In this document: positions 89 to 10,655 of the stretch, in pieces
How the letters are laid out: each line of letters opens with the position of its first letter
How positions within the stretch are numbered: position 1 is the stretch's first letter
Assembly: GCF_003473485.1 (NCBI RefSeq)
Contig: NC_053049.1
Location: forward strand, 8,556,001 to 8,620,000
Reading direction: 5' to 3'
Origin: Medicago truncatula
Taxonomy: Eukaryota; Streptophyta; Magnoliopsida; Fabales; Fabaceae
Length of the DNA stretch: 64,000 nt
The notes under the pieces: generated by a model
What the model was told of the DNA's origin: nothing
The model's database searches: none
The model's input: only the letters and a program-made list of their open reading frames with translations
Position numbers and translations under genes: made by a program

Positions 89-1938
89 ATGTATCAAATT
101 ATATCTTCTGATTGCTCCCAGCCCAACGAAATTGTATTGAGAAGTCAAGTAATGTGGGACAATGCAATGGTTTCTACAAACTTCTTGAGGATATAATGCA
201 GCAAGACTGCCTTGTTTCGGTCTCTATATTTGAATTGGCCACTTCCTTGAGGCAATCATGACTATGTAGAAGCTATATGAGGTCTAAGGGCAAAAAGACA
301 TTCTTAAACAAAAAAACATTCTACTTCAATCAAATGCACCAAAGACTTGAATAAACATCAGGATGCTGAAATTACTATATAAGAAATTAGATGATTTACA
401 ATACAAGAATTGATGGTCTTTTGTTTGTAAGCTATATCTTTATATAACACGGCCTACAATAGTCAGACCCTGCGTCACCCTTTAATTTTATTCCATGAAA
501 TTGCTGCTAGAATGACTTATAGTTGGTGAAGAGTGCATTATTTTAATCAATACTTCTGAATTCTATAATTGTTGGTCATATCTTTTTTATGCTGCTTTCT
601 GGTTTTCATTCTTGAATAATCATAAGTTCAATTCTGCCGTTTAATTATAAATATTTGTTGGAATTGTAAGGTTGGAGGTACAAAGTCTTCAACCATCAGA
701 ATTAGTTCAGTCATCTCCGTTGACATATTAGTAACGAGTATTCATATCATTGTTCATGTTACGGTCTTACCGATGGTAATTTATCATTTCAGTCTACCTT
801 GATTTCTACTTAGGAATTCATAATATCTAAGCTGGATAATCCGGTTATTTATTACGAGTTGTTTACATCTTAGCTTGTTGTTTCGAATATAAAATAACAA
901 TCAAAGTATTTTCTCTCTAGGTGGGATTGCCTGCATAGATCAAACGACTCCATATCTTATAGGGAAGTTAATCAATTAAACAGTTATCAGAATTTAGGAT
1001 GGGCAATAATAAATTTGAGTGAGCGGATTTAATAAATTTGCTGTTTCAAAAAAATAAAAGACGGGTGATAAGCTCTTCATGTCCTCGCTGGGATGCCTCT
1101 ATCAATTATATTGATTGGTTTTTCTGTAAATGTTTGATAAATATTTTGAACATTAAAAGATTCTTTTGGTTATTCTTTTCCCATGGCTCTCTTGAACGTT
1201 AAAAATGCATTTTGCAAGCTATAGACATTTATACCGCAATTAGAATTCAAAACTTTTGTCTTCTATATTTTGGTGTACTTCAGATTCAGAAGAGAATGAC
1301 GAAAACTCAACAACAGAAAATAGAGGATATATTGTGTATACGCAGATGAATCGAGCCTCAGACCTTACAAGACTGTTCAGCGCCTGAGCTCCTCAGAGAG
1401 AGAATATCCTCTCAGTCACAGCCATAATAACAAACAACTCAATGATCCTACCACGCATTTCCCTTTCCTCCTTTATTCCCTGTACTAATTATCAGGTATC
1501 TATCATTGCCACCTCCTTCAGTACAGTCTTTTCTGAAAGCTGAAACGAGGAAACTGACTGTGCTTAATGTCTCAGCACCTCCGCATGTCCTTTCCACTGC
1601 ATCAAAAACTGTTTAACCAGATCTCTAGCTATAGAAACATCCATTCCTACGAGTATTTTTTTGGTTCTATAACTGTGTCAGCCTCCACTTTGGTTTGCTG
1701 TATTTCTCTGTTCTGAGGGTGCATACTTGATTGTTTTAGATGTGATGTCTCATATTTATGTGGTGCACTTGGAGACTAATGTGAAATACTACTGAAATTT
1801 TCCCAAATTAAAGACTTGTGATATTTGATGGCTAACTATTGACCAAATTAAAAATTGTCTTGTTGAACAGGATGGGTCATATCATGTATAATTAAGTGAG
1901 TTTTGTATTGTTTTAGTCATGTTTTATTGTTGAAAGTT
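89..1938. other. Gene-free flank of the large MULE
   Basis: AT-rich DNA without a convincing reading frame. Around 1700-1740 a stretch of about 45 bases resembles 15030-15075 at the start of the CACTA/PttA remnant (shared phrase 'gtgcatacttgatt'). Together with a similar match on the other side of the MULE (about 10715-10890 against 17430-17910), this suggests that the MULE landed in an older, badly decayed relative of that remnant. Nothing else is recognised. Confidence 0.4.
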
Positions 1939-2249
1939 GAATTTTTTTTTTCCTGCCCTTGTTTTTGTCGAAAAATCCAAAAATACCCCCTTTTTGAAAA
2001 AAATTGCAAAAATGCCATACTTTTTCAGTTTTTCTGGTACCTTGCTACCCCCACTTGCGGGGTACCTTTAATTTTTTTTTTAAAAATATTAAGTACCCCG
2101 CAAGTCAAACTTGCGTCCTATTTTTTGTATTTTTTTTTTTAAATTTTTATTACCTCGCAACCCCCACTTGCGGGGTATTTTTTGATTTTTTTTTTTAATT
2201 CCCGCAAGTCAAAATGACTTGTTTTTTTTTAAATTTTTTTTTAAAATAC
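1939..2249. repeat. Left terminal inverted repeat of the MULE
   Basis: About 310 bases pair with 10338-10646 in inverted orientation with few mismatches. The repeat is built of T-rich runs separated by GC-rich phrases of the form CCCACTTGCGGGGTA (2050-2064 and 2163-2177) and CCCCGCAAGTCAAACTTGCG (about 2096-2115). These phrases are the likely transposase contact sites, by analogy with the MURA site in maize Mu ends. Confidence 0.9.
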
Positions 2250-2496
2250 CACTCTAAACAAAAAAATTAATAAGGACAAAAAAAAATAATAAACAAAAAA
2301 AATACCACAATATTTACATGTATTATTTCATCTACTATAAATACTTCGTTTAATTTTTCAATTTATCATACCATTTGAACTTATATTAATAATGTAAATC
2401 TAGGCGTTGACAAAAAAGTAATTATAATAATAATCATAATATTTACAAAATTAAAAACATACGAAATACAATAAATATGAAATAAAGACTAGAGTT

Positions 2497-5204
2497 CTAC
2501 TGATGTCTAATATTAATGCAATCTTTGCGGGAATGACCAGGCATCCTACAAACGCCGCATCTTCTCTCAGTTTCCACATCGTCCATTTCGGTCCTAATGC
2601 GAGTAATTGGTGGACGACCTTTCTTTGCCCTACGCATAGACTTGTCGGGAACCACCTTCAGTCCTTCATAATTAGGCCAATATGACTGGTGGTGAACCAC
2701 GTCAAAGTGGATGTTGTATACGGCGTATACACACTCATTCGTGAATTTGTTATCGACAAAAGTCTTGTAGTCATGACAAAAGCTAGAACATGCGGCAATG
2801 ACATGTGAGCATGGTAGGTGTAACGCTCTGAATCGTCCACAATCACACCATTTATTTTGCAGGTCTACCTTGTATTCTCCCTTTGGTAATCCTTCTCTAT
2901 GGTCGATGGTTTCACGGACGAAAAAGGTATACCGATCCCGATCAAACTGAGTGACATGATGACTGTTGGATTTAATCACCTCATTCCTCAGATATTTCAT
3001 GCTGTTTTCTGAGAATGGCTCACCAGAATTAACCCTTGCCGCTGCCTCATGTCCTCTTTTAGCAAACAAGGCCGCCAACCTGTAATATGATGCTTTCACA
3101 ATAGCTGTGATCGGGAGTCCTCGAATACCCTTATACACGTTGTTTTGTGACTCTACCAAGTTACTTGTCATATGGCCCCATCGTCGACCATCGTCATGTG
3201 ATTGAGTCCACTTTTGTTTGGGAATATTGTCGACCCATGCTAAAGCCTTTCGGTCTGCAACAGCAATTTCAGAATGGTAATATTCGAATGTAGGGATGTT
3301 CATGGCGTAACTTGCATTGTTTGGGAAAAAGTTAGATGTGTCTTTTTAAACAAATAATATGTCGAATTTACGTGGAAAGAGATATGTTTTTTACCCATGC
3401 CTTCAACTTTCTTCTTAAGTTCCCCATCCTTGAATGATCTCATAAAGTTTTGTGCAATGTGTCGGACACAATACACATGGCTTGTCGGAGCACCGTGCCA
3501 TCCATTCTGTGGATCATCATACGCGCTCTTTATCGACACATGTCTATCGGAAATGAGGCATATGTTCTCCTGTGGGGTGACATGCTGCCTTAGATTCTTC
3601 AAAAAGAAACTCCAAGCCTCCTTGGTCTCGCCTTCCACGATTGCAAAAGCAATGGGAAATATCTTGTTGTTCCCATCTTGCGCAACAGCTAACAACAATG
3701 TTCCTTTGTATTTGCCATACAACCAAGTTGCGTCAATTTGGACAATGGGTTTACAGAATTCGAAACCTAAGATGCACGGACGAAAGACCCAAAAGAGACG
3801 CTTGAAGACGATCTCATTTACCACTTCTGTTGATGAGACTGTTTGAAAATCAATTATTGTTCTTGGCAAATCTTTTTCCATGACCATCAACCATTGTGGT
3901 AGTTCTTGATAAGACTCCTCCCAATTACCATAAATTGATTCAATCGCCTTATTCCTTGCTCTCCATGCCTTTCTGTATGAAACTGTGTAATTAAACTTCT
4001 CTCGGATGTGTGCAATTATAACCTTCACTGTAATTGAAGTATCCATATGTAGAAGTGACTTAACACTTTCACATATCACATTGTAACTAAGTTTGTGATG
4101 ATCTTGCGTCATTTCTGTTGAGACACATGTATGATCATTCATATTGCCGATCTCCCATTTATCAGTTTTTTTCCTCCACGAGGCCCGCAATTTGAAACCA
4201 CATTTTGTATCTTTACATTTGATGACATACCTTTCAGAATCTGATTTTTTCACAATATAATCCGTTGATTTCTTCATGTGATAAAATTTAATTGCAAGAA
4301 TGCAATCATTTTTGTTATGGAATTGCATCCCCGACGCAATACCTTGATCGACCGAAAGAGCCATTGAATGATAAAGTTCAGTTGAGTGGTCATCATTGAC
4401 GTTGCGCATGGACCTTGGTGGATTGTAAGAAGCTCGGATTGGTAAAATTGGTAGTTGTGGCAGATCGTCGTCTTCATCTTCGTCCTCGTCTTCTTCGTTC
4501 TCATCACCGTTTTGTGCAGCAAGGAGCTCTTCATCATCTTCATCATCTTGAACTTCATCATTTTCTTGGTCTTGGAATTGGGAGGTGAATATATCGATTT
4601 CAGCGTTTAAAGTTTCGAGTTGTGTTGAACGGGATGGTGTTTGAGAGGAATAAGGTTGAGTTATTCTTTGTGACGGTTCATACACATTTTGTGACCACTG
4701 TGACTGAAAAGGTTGCGATGAGGATGCACCATAAATGGATGACGTGTTGTAATGTGGTTCGGACGATGAAGGGTTGTTGTGTTGTGTACTATATTGTTGT
4801 TGTGGTAGACTTTGGTGTTGACTAGAACTTGATGGGTAATTTAACTCAACATTAGATGTTGGATTCTTCATCTCAAACATAACATAAAGCTCTATATAGG
4901 ACAAAGAACTGTGACTTTTATGTACGTTAAACATAAACTCGACATCGTCGTTATCAGTTATTCTTAACGCCTGGTAGTGAATTGTGGTAGTTCCAACAAA
5001 CATGGGATTCCGACATATAATTTCAGACACAACCATGTTATCTCCGAGACATAACTTTTCCACTATTCTTTTTTTGAGATGCAAGTAAGTACTAGCCATG
5101 CTCACTTTAAAACCTTTGGTATACTGACTTTGGAAAAAAATGCCGGATTCATTTTGTTTAACTTCTCCATTGTAGTACACAAAAATGTTTATATTTGGTG
5201 CCAT
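2497..5204 (-). CDS. MURA-type (MuDR) transposase of the MULE
   Basis: This enzyme cuts and pastes the element by binding its inverted ends. Exon 1 runs from ATG 5204 to about 3395; an open frame extends further upstream, but MAPNINIFVYYNGEV is the natural start. An 84-base GT-AG intron (3394-3311) separates it from exon 2 (3310-2497). In order: an N-terminal PB1-like part, an acidic Ser/Gln/Asp/Glu-rich linker, the Mutator DNA-binding zinc domain (YVIKCKDTKCGFKLRASW...HTC), and the DDE-like core (VQIDATWL with the first Asp, ICLISDRH with the second). These are followed by a SWIM finger (WCDCGRFRALHLPCSHV) and a C-terminal CCHC knuckle (CGVCRMPGHSRKDC). With the obvious splice sites the two exons are one base out of phase (expected EGM-GYAMN), so either a base was lost at the donor or another junction is used. 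It is transcribed divergently from the PMD gene. Confidence 0.9.
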
Positions 5205-5930
5205 TGAATGGTTTGATGTTAAGAAATGAGGAAGAGTATGAAGTAGAGTGGTGTGATACAATTATAACAGGTTCACCACTTTTATAATAATGAAATGGTG
5301 TCAAAATAAAATGGAATGCTTCCTCACGTGCCAGCTTAGATTGGAGTACCACGCAGCTCCCACTTGCGGGGTAGGTGGCTCACGCGCCAGTTGTAGTGCA
5401 ACTCCCACTTGCGGGGTAGCTGGCACACGCGCCAGCTGAGAGGGCACCTCGCAACTCCCACTTGCGGGGTAGGGTGTGCACGCGCCAGTTTATGCGCCCT
5501 TCAGAGATAGCTGGTCGGTCATTTCAATTTATTGGCCCTCACACGTGATTTAGCATGGTTTGGTCATTTCAGTCAAAAATTTTATGCAGAAAATAATGCA
5601 TTTTTTGCATGCATTGGTCATTTCATGAGGCAATAGATGCAATACTGTTGAACAGCATGCTTCTGCTTTTACATGCAATTGTCATTTCTACATTTATTTG
5701 AACACTATTGGCATGCATGCATTGCAGTAGTAACACATGATTTCTTCACTTCAATTAAAATACCACACTACTATTTCAATTTCTTTACACATAGTTTAAC
5801 ATTATAAATACCGCAACCTTATTCTTACTGTCCTCCCATATTCTTTTTATATCAATCCTTTTCTTCCTTACTCGCTCACTCACTCACTCACGTAACAAAT
5901 TTTTTTCTTCCTTACTCACTCAAGTAACAA
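5205..5930. promoter_or_regulatory. Bidirectional promoter region of the MULE
   Basis: This region lies between the divergent start codons of the transposase and the PMD gene. A TTATAAAAG-like TATA box on the minus strand near 5281 suits the transposase, and TTATAAATA near 5803 suits the PMD gene. Three imperfect tandem units (5359-5373, 5404-5418, 5457-5471) each contain CCCACTTGCGGGGTA followed by a CACGCGCCAG phrase. The same 15-base core occurs in the terminal inverted repeats, so transposase could bind its own promoter. That role is inferred. Confidence 0.6.
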
Positions 5931-8900
5931 ATGGCATACTTGTCGTTGGAAAATGATCATAGATCTACCGAAGAACACATCAGAAAATGGGTATATATGA
6001 ATATTAATTTGTTAATTTTACTTACATTATTTAAATTACTTATTATATCTTATCTTTTTATTTTTTGTTAGGATGCAGAGGGTGTACCTCTTGTCACTCG
6101 TACACGACAACACATAGTACCAAGTCCGTTTATTCAAGATTATCTACGTCAGGCTAGATTTTTTGAGGTTTCTCAAATAGGGTGTTACAAAATTGATAGG
6201 CACATTGTAACCACTCTTGTAGAAAGATGGCGGTCCGAAACCCATACTTTTCACTTTCGAACGGGTGAGTGTACTATCACTTTGGAAGACGTCTATATGT
6301 TACTCGGCTTACCTTTTGGAGGTTCAATTGTTACGGCTCCTCCAACTCTTCCGTGGAATCTTTGTGCTCATTTGTTGGGAATAACTCCTCCAGCACACAA
6401 AACTGATGGTTTTACTCTCTCCTTGTCGTGGTTAAAGGATAATCTAGTCGATAATAACTTCAATGAACAATCTCCTCCGGAGGTAAAAATACAACACACT
6501 AGGAGGTACCTACTATACCTCTTTGGAGGGTTCTTGTTTCCAAATACAACTGGATTATTTGTGCACACCTCTTGGTTGTCTTTGTTAATGGATTTTAATG
6601 AAACAAGAAGATATAGTTGGGGATCGGCAGTTTTGGCTTACCTTTATCGTGGCTTGTGTGAGGCCTCACATCCAAATATAAAAGCACTAAATGGATGTCA
6701 TTTCTTGTTACAAGTTTGGGGATATTTTCGGTTGAGTCATATCGCTCCGAGAAATGATAACCCACTCCAGTGGCCGCTAGGATTAAAGTAAGCGTGACCA
6801 ATTTTTTTTTATTAACCCACTCACATATTCTCGCTTCTTATTAATATTATTATTTGATAAATTAGCTACTAATTTCTTTATATCATTTGTTAGATGGACA
6901 GGTGTAGGTTCTGTAACGCCCTAGTCGTTATTTATTTATTTTTAGAGTTATTTAGAGTCTTTTATGCATTTTATGTAATTATGTGTGACTTATTTGATGT
7001 GTTATTTTATTTATATGATTTAATTTAATATAAATCGAATAAAATGAATAATAGAGTTATTTAGGAGGTTAGGGATTAATTAGAAATTAATAGAATTTAG
7101 GGGAGGTTTAATGTAATAAGAGGAGTTACACTTTAGGAAAGAAAAGGAAAAGAAAAAGGGAGAAAACTGTTTTAACGTGAAAACAAGTGGGAGAAGAAAA
7201 AGCTAGGCAAAGGAGAAGACCAAGAGAGAAGAACTTAGAAATTGGTTTGCTGCACTTTATCTTTGCAATTCTAAGGTAAGGGTGGGATCATCTTTCAATA
7301 ACGATAATATATGATTTCTGAAAATTAAGCAATTTAACTGTTTTTATGGTAAAAATTGGGAAATTAGGGTTAATGGCAATTTTGAAGAAAATGTGTAAGA
7401 TTTAGGTTTATAAAGTTGTATTTGATAATTAATATGATTTCCTACTCTGTATTGTTGATGTTGATCATAATTGGATGAAGGTAGAATATAATGGATGAAG
7501 TTTTGAAAGTTCTGAATGAATGTTTGATTTGAATGAATTGTTGTTGTTGGTGTTGAATTGCTGTTCTTTTGATAGCTGGTTGTACATAGGACTTGTAAAC
7601 ATTTCAGGAAAACGTTTTGGGTGAATTGGGGATTAAAATTGGGTTTTTGGGGTGAGGAGAAGTCTGAAAATCGTAGCTTTTACCCTGCCCAGACGATTGG
7701 TCGCTTAAGCGAAGCATCCGTCGCTTAAGCGAACATTCATGTGAACTACCCAGATTGTGATTTTACCCGTTCGCTTAAGCGAACAGTGAGCGAACTGGTA
7801 AGCGAAAATTAAGTTTGATTCTATCCAAAGTTCGCCCAAGCGAACCGTGAGCGACCCGTAAGCGAACTGAACCCAGACCTACTGTAAGTTGGTCGCTTAA
7901 GCGAGCTAGCCGTCGCTTAAGCGAACTGAGTGTTAGTTAGCCTTTTTCTGAATCTTGCTTCACACACTAAGGGATCCTTTTGAGTATTTCTAGATGTTCC
8001 TTACAGCTTGTATAACCTTTGTATAGACTTAAAGTCCTACTTAAAATCATGATGATAATTAGTTGGTTAATTTTATGAATTTGAATGTTGGAATGCTTGA
8101 ATCAATTAGATGAACATGTTGCATTGAAAAGGTGCTGAGTCGTATGAGTACATATGCATTTGTTGTTGAGTTGTAGGCAGATATACACAAGTGGAGTCAG
8201 TTGCATAAGCATAAAAACGATGAGAACTTCGGTTCTGGAACGCTTTGTCGTTCAAAACGATGGAACACGATGTTGTTCAAAACGATGTTAACGATGAGGA
8301 CTCATGTCCTGATAAAGAATGCTTTAACCATTCTATAACGATGAGAGCTTCGGCCCTGATATGGTACCACATGCATAATTGCATTTGTTGAGGAGTCTTA
8401 GAAGAGTTGTCATGTCTTGCATGAGTCTTAGAAGTGAAGTCGAGTAGTCGCATGAGTCATTGTTACTGTTATATTATGATTGTTGAATGATGAAGTTGAT
8501 AATAAATGTTGTATTATGATTGTTGAACGATTATGATGATAGAGTGTTAGATTCATTATGTTATTATATATTATTATTATTGTTGGAGAATCTCACCCCT
8601 TCTGCTTGAAAATGTTGCCCTTCCTATGGGTAACTTGCAGGTGATCCTGAGTAGTAGGTGGTGGCTCACAAAGTTTAGGGCTCTGATACGTGGGATGGGG
8701 TTTTATTATTTGAATTCTTTCCTATGTATCAACTTTGAATTATAACTGATGTAGTTATTTGGTGATCGACTATTATGTTGAAATGGCCTTTACGCCAATA
8801 ATAATTATTGTAGAATGAATGACGATGAAAATAATCCGCTGCGAGTTAATGACAATTTTATGAACGACGTTTGATTAAATAGATTTTTATATATCCTCTA

Positions 8901-9116
8901 TTTAACAATTTTTTTTTAAATGAAGAAATGTAGCATGCCTGTTATGATTACTCTGATTATTGTCGTATTATTACTATTTAAGTAATTTTGGGAAACGGGG
9001 TGTTACAGGTTCAAGATACTACGAGAATCCAAGCCATGACACTATATCTTACAGAAAAAAGTTTGATGACATACTACCACATGATGTAATATTTTAATTG
9101 ATTTTTTAATTATGAG

Positions 9117-9171
<55 letters not shown>

Positions 9172-10263
9172 AAATTGTTAGCCTTACAATACAACTTCTC
9201 TCTTGTGCCAGTTTAAATGGAGACCTTACAAGAAGGTTCCATACAACCAGCCTGAAGACTATTGGGAATGGACAACAACAACTGACCTTATCTGTTTTGA
9301 CAAAGTTGAATGGCATCCAACTGATAGGGTGAAGCTTCAATTTGGTTTGCCACAAGAAATACCCGGGGCCCCAAGAGACATGCGACAATTCCATACGGTG
9401 GACAAACGGTTCAAGACGTGGTACCAATCAAATGGTTTTCGCTTTCCGATAGAGAGCCAACATTGGGACAACCGACGGAGTTATACTTTACCTCGCATGC
9501 AGCCAAGATCACTCACCCCAAGTCATGCATATATTGAGTGGTTGACAACCACATGCAACCCACGTCTAAGGATTTCAGTTGAGACAAAACCATCAGATTC
9601 AGATCCAGACGAACAAGAAGAGCCGGAGCCGGAACATGAACCTGAAATTCACAACAACCAAACACCAATTCATGATGATTTTTGGGATCAAGACATTTTT
9701 TCTCAACTACAAGATCATCAATCCCAACCACATACAACACAAAACATTCATGGTTCTGTAATGTATGAATTTCTCGACACCCCCCAACAAAATATCATCC
9801 AACCACCACCATATACCTCCCCGAGAAATGCATATGAGCCCCAATATCAGTCAACTTACCAACAAAATTCAATGCCAAATTATGGTTACAATGACCCAAA
9901 TCAAGCTACCACATCCAACAACAACTACTTCTCCTATAATGACCCAAACCAAGCTGGACCGTCCAACACCAATTACCCCCCTACAACAGCCCACAATACC
10001 CAATGTACACCAACCAAAACTACAACCATCCACCAACACCAACAAACCTATTATCTCACTTCTCTCCGGCTTCGTTCAACGACAATGAACAATTTCTGGA
10101 TATTGGATGGCAAACAAGGGAACACGATGTGTCGTTGTCATTGGGTTATGGTAGTCAAATACAATCAACTACAGATAACAATGACGAAGACCAACATGAC
10201 CCTCAAGTAAATCGCGGAAGAAATCGTCGAAGACGAGGGTGTGGGACAGCCGGGCATTTATAA
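5931..10263 (+). CDS. Plant mobile domain (PMD/MAIN-like) protein, interrupted
   Basis: This gene encodes an aminotransferase-like plant mobile domain, a family shared by transposons and the host MAIN/MAIL proteins; its role in transposons is not settled. Exons: 5931-5990 (MAYLSLENDHRSTEEHIRKW), 6072-6787, 6894-6911 joined to 9013-9085 across a solo LTR, and 9212-10263. The core motif ETHTFHFRTGECTITLEDV is typical, and a later block reads FKWRPYKKVPY...VEWHPTDRV. After about residue 390 the protein becomes an Asn/Gln/Pro-rich tail ending RGRNRRRRGCGTAGHL. In the tail the frame shifts by one base at a six-C run near 9976-9981; the C-terminal phrase is only in the shifted frame. An (AT)n tract lies in the last intron. 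The gene is unlikely to give full-length protein now. Confidence 0.85.
6912..9007. mobile_element. Solo LTR of a Ty3/gypsy-like retrotransposon (fossil)
   Basis: The 2096-bp insertion begins TGTAACGCCC and ends GGGGTGTTACA. It is flanked by the perfect 5-bp duplication GGTTC (6907-6911 and 9008-9012). There is no coding part, primer-binding site or second LTR, so this is a solo LTR left by recombination between two LTRs. The length and the TGTAAC...GTTACA ends suit Ty3/gypsy elements of legumes; the lineage is not assigned. It interrupts an exon of the PMD gene, so it is younger than the MULE insertion or at least than the MULE lineage. Confidence 0.9.
7690..7935. repeat. Cluster of CGCTTAAGCG palindromes inside the solo LTR
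   Basis: The phrase TCGCTTAAGCGA or a close variant recurs at least five times (about 7700, 7720, 7770, 7895 and 7912), with degenerate GAGCGAACTGG/TAAGCGAA units between. Each is a near-perfect palindrome. It forms a distinct GC-richer block in an otherwise AT-rich LTR and may be a regulatory or protein-binding array; function unknown. Confidence 0.75.
9120..9170. repeat. (AT)n microsatellite
   Basis: About 50 bases of uninterrupted TA dinucleotides in the last intron of the PMD gene of the MULE. Confidence 0.95.
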
Positions 10264-10337
10264 TAATTGTAGATATTATGATATTTAATTTATTTATTAT
10301 TTTTTTTGTCCTTCTTTTTTATTTATTATTTTTTTTT

Positions 10338-10646
10338 GTATTTTAAAAAAAATTTATAAAAAAAAACAAGTCATTTTGACTTGCGGGAATTAAAAAAAAA
10401 TCAAAAAATACCGCGCAAGTGGGGGTTGCGAGGTAATAAAAATTTAAAAAAAAAATACAAAAAATAGGACGCAAGTTTGACTTGCGGGGTACTTAATATT
10501 TTTAAAATTTTTTTTAAGGTACCCCGCAAGTGGGGGTAGCAAGGTACCAGAAAAACTGAAAAAGTAGGGTATTTTTGCAATTTTTTTCAAAAGGGAGGCA
10601 TTTTTGGATTTTTCGACACAAACAAGGGTAGAAAAAAAAAAAATTC
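10338..10646. repeat. Right terminal inverted repeat of the MULE
   Basis: Inverted partner of 1939-2249. It contains TACCCCGCAAGTGGG at 10520-10534 exactly and at 10409-10423 with one change, and is followed directly by the target duplication TTGAAAGTT. Confidence 0.9.
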
Positions 10647-10655
10647 TTGAAAGTT

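Follow-up and report, generated by a model that had tools for sequence, protein, structure and literature searches.

What does a plant mobile domain (PMD) gene do for the transposon that carries it? The question, which extends to the PMD proteins encoded by plant genes themselves, is raised here by a Mutator-like element (MULE) of Medicago truncatula that spans exactly positions 1939-10646 of the stretch analysed (the window: 64,000 nucleotides, C8:8556001-8620000). We compared this element with its relatives across the assembly (429.9 Mb, 42 contigs). On our preferred reading, which we hold to be rather likely, the element belongs to a two-gene MULE family of autonomous type and has since decayed; an element-encoded protein would bind a 17-bp dyad and couple transposition to gene control, with the PMD protein as activator or anti-silencer.

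The element and its 17-bp dyad

The element is bounded on each side by one copy of TTGAAAGTT, at 1930-1938 and at 10647-10655. Both copies are exact, as claimed in the initial annotation, and their length of 9 bp falls within the 9-11 bp of MULE target duplications. Alignment paired 1942-2326 with 10260-10642 at 89.2% identity over 388 columns. We place the 5' terminal inverted repeat (TIR) at 1939-2326 on the plus strand, where pairing with the other end starts at 1942, and the 3' TIR at 10260-10646 on the minus strand. Inverted ends of about 310 bp had been predicted; they exist, as the long TIRs of a MULE, and the alignment extends them to 385 bp.

We joined both flanks through one TTGAAAGTT and used the product as an empty-site query. 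The results showed a paralogous empty site at C8:8541380-8541760, about 16 kb upstream of the element, with 214 of 242 columns identical, an alignment unbroken across the junction and a single TTGAAAGTT. At C8:8555000 a weaker paralogue (71 of 90 columns) likewise runs across the junction, and in a third flank paralogue, at C8:8547990, the alignment ends there. The search for an empty target with a single TTGAAAGTT had been set beforehand as the check on which the element might fail; the target was found, and one insertion event is supported. Searching for TTGAAAGTT as a pattern whose right side was kept loose was uninformative (872 matches, and 786 in the control). The element lies within a locally repeated segment, the left flank (window 1735-1938) having three paralogues no more than 17 kb upstream (C8:8541453, 8548066 and 8555120).

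A genome search for the ends, which had been suggested at the outset, showed that the end sequence recurs, with at least 78 matches to the 5' end (best 40 of 128 candidates scored). We refer to the family that these copies form with the window element as family A. Exact target duplications of at least 9 bp flank 10 of the 12 other loci inspected; the duplication at L043 is 8 bp (9 with one mismatch), and L045 has none. Three copies of 6.6 kb each, L039, L040 and L041 (C5:32112798, C2:43117799 and C7:53061298), retain open frames in the main exons of both genes (625, 282, 239 and 340 codons; PMD exons 1 and 3 were read in L039 only). Because these three are 99.2-99.6% identical across the whole element, lie on three contigs and have different target duplications, they point to recent movement of the family in this genome. 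Shorter deletion derivatives (L048, L049 and L050) retain the ends.

The dyad, CGC[AC][AG]-N7-[CT][TG]GCG, measures 17 bp (5-7-5) and stands in both ends of the element and in the region between its genes. In the window copy it lies at 2099-2115 (CGCAA-N7-TTGCG) and 2156-2172 in the 5' end, at 5352-5368 and 5450-5466 in the centre, and at 10414-10430 and 10470-10486 in the 3' end. Its half-sites were searched at spacings of 2-14. The results showed a spacing of 7 in all 60 matches of 13 family-A copies, and in all 34 when seven distinct copies are counted. A second family, B, has the layout of family A; here the spacing was 7 in 19 of 19 matches from 10 centres and in 6 of 8 from the long B element, L053. 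About 55 kb of the window outside the element held no dyad at spacing 7 and one at 11, and eight 3-kb loci, taken from the loose TTGAAAGTT search, held none at spacing 7 and one at 8. Genome-wide, the dyad pattern occurs at 1519 sites and its reversed form at 444. The genome sites listed are the first ones, on C1; among these, the repeated sites at 6.46 and 12.92 Mb belong to A and B copies, and most single sites are unrelated.

The half-sites differ between the families, being mostly CGCAA/TTGCG in A and CGCCA or CGCCG/TGGCG in B, and the dyad has therefore changed in the ends and the centre together. At least one strict dyad was present in eight of nine family-A centres and in all 10 family-B centres. 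We also counted GC-rich 9-mers common to the centre and the ends, finding 23 in the window copy, 8 in L039, 17 in L044, 23 in L042 and 11 in L053; shuffling gave means of 0.28-0.47 (0.28 for the window copy), and none of 300 shuffles reached the observed number in any of the five elements.

No CGCNN-N7-NNGCG was found in L084 or L085, two related loci in which no PMD was detected (transposase core 62-63%); both are decayed, neither yielded its ends, and the result weighs neither for nor against the preferred reading. No dyad was found either in the PMD loci L063, L072-L075, L080 and L081, or in L065, most of these being fragments of 1-2.6 kb. A literature search of titles and abstract openings, with preprints and most subscription journals outside its scope, returned no description of the element or the dyad, and the excerpt of PMC6446971 does not mention the dyad (here and below, cited articles are represented by excerpts). 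Absence from the literature searched does not prove the dyad unpublished.

Two divergent genes and their pairing

The initial annotation had described two head-to-head genes, and this was confirmed: the transposase gene runs on the minus strand from a start codon at 5204, and the PMD gene on the plus strand from 5931. Between the start codons lies a central region of 726 bp (5205-5930), delimited by alignment of copies, in which we infer both promoters to lie. CGCGTG-type words (CACGCGCCAG; CAGGCGCGTG) are repeated in the centres (window 5205-5930, and family B), and CACGTG occurs there too, in both families.

The transposase gene (2497-5204) comprises exon 1 (5204-3395), a predicted intron (3394-3312) and exon 2 (3311-2497), as drawn from domains, open reading frames and the intron as compared across 10 copies; L043, which the probe failed to match, stands outside that alignment. 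Exon limits of both genes are predictions from copy comparison. Exon 1 encodes the MuDR DNA-binding domain PF03108 (DBD_Tnp_Mut; 4149-4334, E 1.8e-8) and the MULE transposase domain PF10551 (3447-3746, E 1.3e-16), and exon 2 encodes the SWIM zinc finger PF04434 (2782-2874, E 3.2e-6). All three lie on the minus strand and exceed the Pfam cut-offs, giving the domain content of a MULE.

The PMD gene (5931-10263) has predicted exons at 5931-5990, 6072-6787, 6894-9085 and 9212-10263, its end being that of the frame in the open copies. PF10536 matched exon 2 of the window copy (E 9.4e-53, above the cut-off) and exon 4 of L039 (E 2.1e-13). AlphaFold2 applied to exon 2 alone gave a mean predicted local distance difference test score (pLDDT) of 58 and a predicted template modelling score (pTM) of 0.56. 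A long TA run (window 9117-9172) lies inside the last PMD intron of the window copy.

The element had been put forward as nearly intact, with both genes readable, and as a good reference copy. None of this holds. A 2.1-kb solo long terminal repeat (LTR) splits PMD exon 3, exon 4 is frameshifted, and the transposase intron is changed at its predicted 3' splice site, which all nine other aligned copies conserve. The window copy most likely yields neither protein in working form, to judge from these lesions, and cleaner family-A copies are available in L039, L040 and L041.

We then searched the genome for PMD and transposase sequences, considering the best 150 of 735 candidates in one search and the best 150 of 327 in the other. 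Among the matches listed, at least 39 were long PMD matches: family A contributed 25, with 80% identity or more across 190 positions or more, and family B contributed 14, with 40-44% identity across 210 positions or more. For 32 of these 39 (20 in A and 12 in B), a transposase match lies within 5 kb on the opposite strand, and all 32 pairs are head to head. The unpaired seven are at C4:27181460, C3:12083274, C7:44031362, C2:40608998, C2:30940801, C7:30500384 and C6:6517015, and the match at C2:30940801 has a transposase partner 11 kb away. The count leaves out the stand-alone C3:21947037 (40% across 199 positions), two matches with stops, C8:40953683 (49%, with five) and C6:40032621 (39%, with three), and fragments of lesser length.

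Between families A and B (L053), identity is 47% for transposase exon 1, 59% for exon 2 and 60% for the DNA-binding region, and 41% for the PMD. Within family A, the ratio of nonsynonymous to synonymous substitution rates (dN/dS), a pairwise Nei-Gojobori estimate with no significance test, was 0.236 and 0.437 for PMD exons 2 and 4 between the window copy and L039, and 0.169 and 0.099 for transposase exons 1 and 2. We read these values as both genes having been maintained while the family was active, with decay later. In the tree, the family-A PMD is sister to that of family B (100/99), and both group with the stand-alone locus L072, apart from L080/L081 (99/97), which we take as Gypsy-type PMD; this tree carries a long-branch warning and includes no named MAIN or MAIL. 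Membership of the A and B proteins in PMD-C is plausible from this placement.

That PMD genes ride on MULEs was already known, as the initial annotation stated. Dupeyron et al. 2019 list MULEs with an antisense PMD gene in MUDRAVI2 group 49 and MUDR group 50 (PMC6446971), and the present element is a further MULE of this kind. Shared features are the 9-bp duplication, the long TIRs, the SWIM-type transposase and a PMD on the opposite strand, the likeness being drawn from these features rather than from a transposase tree. The TIRs of 385 bp are longer than those of groups 49 and 50 (80-290 and 30-320 bp) and fall within the 14-421 bp of group 47, MULE-Monocots (PMC6446971). Maize MuDR (mudrA and mudrB) is alike in its two genes, long TIRs and 9-bp duplication. 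In MuDR the genes converge, starting in the ends from promoters within the TIRs (PMC3310237); here the start codons diverge from a central region and the second gene is a PMD gene.

What the dyad and the PMD may do

On the preferred reading, an element-encoded protein would bind the dyad as a dimer. Binding at the ends would prepare the DNA for cutting, and binding at the centre would place both genes under the element's own control. The transposase would be the default binder at the ends, by analogy with Mutator, whose TIRs contain promoters and transposase binding sites and are bound by MURA (PMC3310237). The PMD protein would most likely activate or counter silencing, acting at or near the dyads or at the motifs next to them on the PMD side and keeping the promoter and the ends open, in the way that VANC serves VANDAL.

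In VANDAL MULEs, VANC proteins reverse silencing and bind short motifs that lie in noncoding DNA between the genes and at the ends (PMC5735166). Like VANDAL21/Hiun, the present MULE repeats a short motif in its intergenic and terminal noncoding DNA, and the motif differs between related families (PMC5735166, PMC10398659). The likeness is one of sequence, and the two differ in that VANDAL21/Hiun has degenerate ends and a tandem repeat, whereas the ends here are long and the motif is a dyad of fixed spacing. The absent or short degenerate TIRs of VANDAL elements are not what we found, the TIRs being 385 bp; no VANC gene was seen here, although no search was aimed at VANC. Spm/En belongs to the CACTA superfamily, and its proteins are unrelated. 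Its TnpA is comparable as a transposon protein whose reported activation of the element that encodes it is accompanied by DNA demethylation, and MURA and TnpA are both reported to cause hypomethylation (PMC10398659).

An anti-silencing role for MULE-borne PMDs was an earlier speculation of the authors of PMC5418596. MULE PMDs are described as transposase fusions in grasses and Amborella (PMC5418596), and eudicots as having mainly genic PMD-C (PMC7156037). The host proteins MAIN/MAIL1 share the PF10536 domain (PMC5418596, PMC7156037, PMC9899485), but their genes lie outside any element, whereas here a separate PMD gene is part of a eudicot MULE. The excerpt of PMC4334395 contained nothing on PMD.

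Several observations weigh against the preferred reading. L039, L040 and L041 are near-copies and count as one witness. Dyad sets are incomplete in some copies, with none in the centre of L044, none in the 3' end of L042 and one in total in L049. The transposase and the PMD both differ between families A and B, hence the two cannot be told apart as the binder, and the PMD as a DNA binder is proposed by inference, through analogy. The exon 4 frameshift of the window copy is common also to L043, L045, L047 and L051, that is, to five of nine copies with exon 4 outside the L039 group. Finally, five pairs inside the older subfamily gave dN/dS mostly of 0.2-0.9 with few changes, and two comparisons of L042 with L044 exceeded 1 (PMD exon 4 and transposase exon 1). 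From the frameshift and these ratios, copies that are mobilised in trans may do without the PMD tail, or without the PMD altogether.

An alternative to which we give limited credence holds that the dyad is purely a transposase site, that through the central copies the transposase represses or activates its own promoter, and that the PMD protein has an unrelated role, for example as the product of a captured host gene that compacts chromatin, or as a passenger. It would account for the dyads kept in the ends of L048, L049 and L050, and for the PMD diverging more between the families than the transposase and its DNA-binding region; it would also agree with MURA, a TIR-binding protein that reportedly brings about TIR hypomethylation (PMC3310237, PMC10398659). 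However, the head-to-head pairing with a transposase, in 32 of the 39 listed matches and across two old families, and the PMD dN/dS of 0.24 and 0.44 between subfamilies make the PMD unlikely to be a mere passenger.

We consider it improbable that the PMD works independently of the dyad, through a cluster of CATGCA words such as that on the PMD side of the window centre (5606-5721; six occurrences, against a shuffle mean of 1.25). Counting overlapping occurrences, the nine family-A centres, three of which are near-copies, hold 5-9 CATGCA words against shuffle means of 0.8-1.4, and at most one of 200 shuffles reached the count in each. This enrichment speaks for the idea, but it is uneven in family B, where the centres hold 1-6 words and at least 15 of 200 shuffles reached the count in seven of the 10. 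Moreover, CATGCA is a common plant promoter word, the RY element. It resembles the DOWN motif of MAIN/MAIL1-dependent genes in the instance CATGCAGTTT from the MORC1 promoter (PMC9899485); the comparison was with this one instance and not with a matrix, and the resemblance is a lead only. As for two separate insertions that own the ends in an accidental layout, this is hardly conceivable and was rejected because the empty site carries just one TTGAAAGTT; the same ends, with their own target duplications, also recur at other loci.

Beyond the preferred reading of this element lies a wider proposal, which we regard as doubtful and offer tentatively: MULE-borne PMDs may be sequence-specific anti-silencers that read a fixed-spacing dyad in the ends and in a two-way promoter, one site coupling expression with end recognition. 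The dyad carries CpG at both edges and could be a methylation-sensitive switch. If the proposal is true, host PMD genes acting through promoter motifs would share this ancestry. With open copies that moved recently, and with a 17-bp site that is defined and present at three points of the element, the anti-silencing idea becomes a simple binding test for each protein, and a dyad layout common to two families with strongly different PMDs makes specificity swaps testable.

Nested insertion and divergent copies

Two further family-A copies depart from the common layout. At C5:31955923-31958168 (L065 and L076) lies a divergent family-A copy with a PMD identity of 82%, a gap of only 1.1 kb between the PMD and the transposase core, and an 827-codon open frame across that core; its centre was probably removed by deletion. 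At C2:30939053-30953962 (L051 and L052), a 14.9-kb family-A copy has widely separated gene halves and likely holds another nested insertion. In L053, the 3' tip is outside the fetched stretch, and family-B target duplications are not part of our count; an inverted family-B end (L053:673-899) directly adjoins the long B element.

The insert in PMD exon 3 of the window copy occupies 6912-9007 on the plus strand, measures 2096 bp with TG...CA ends, and is flanked by the 5-bp target duplication GGTTC at 6907-6911 and 9008-9012. It is missing from all 10 fetched copies that span its position (L047, L049, L050 and L052 do not span the insertion point). We searched the genome with its first 239 bases, and the results showed at least 12 same-strand pairs 5.5-7.9 kb apart among the best 40 of 1262 candidates. 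Because such pairs recur elsewhere and a single copy stands here, we identify the insert as a solo LTR, in agreement with its ends and its duplication. Within it, TCGCTTAAGCGA palindromes are repeated at window 7701-7924.

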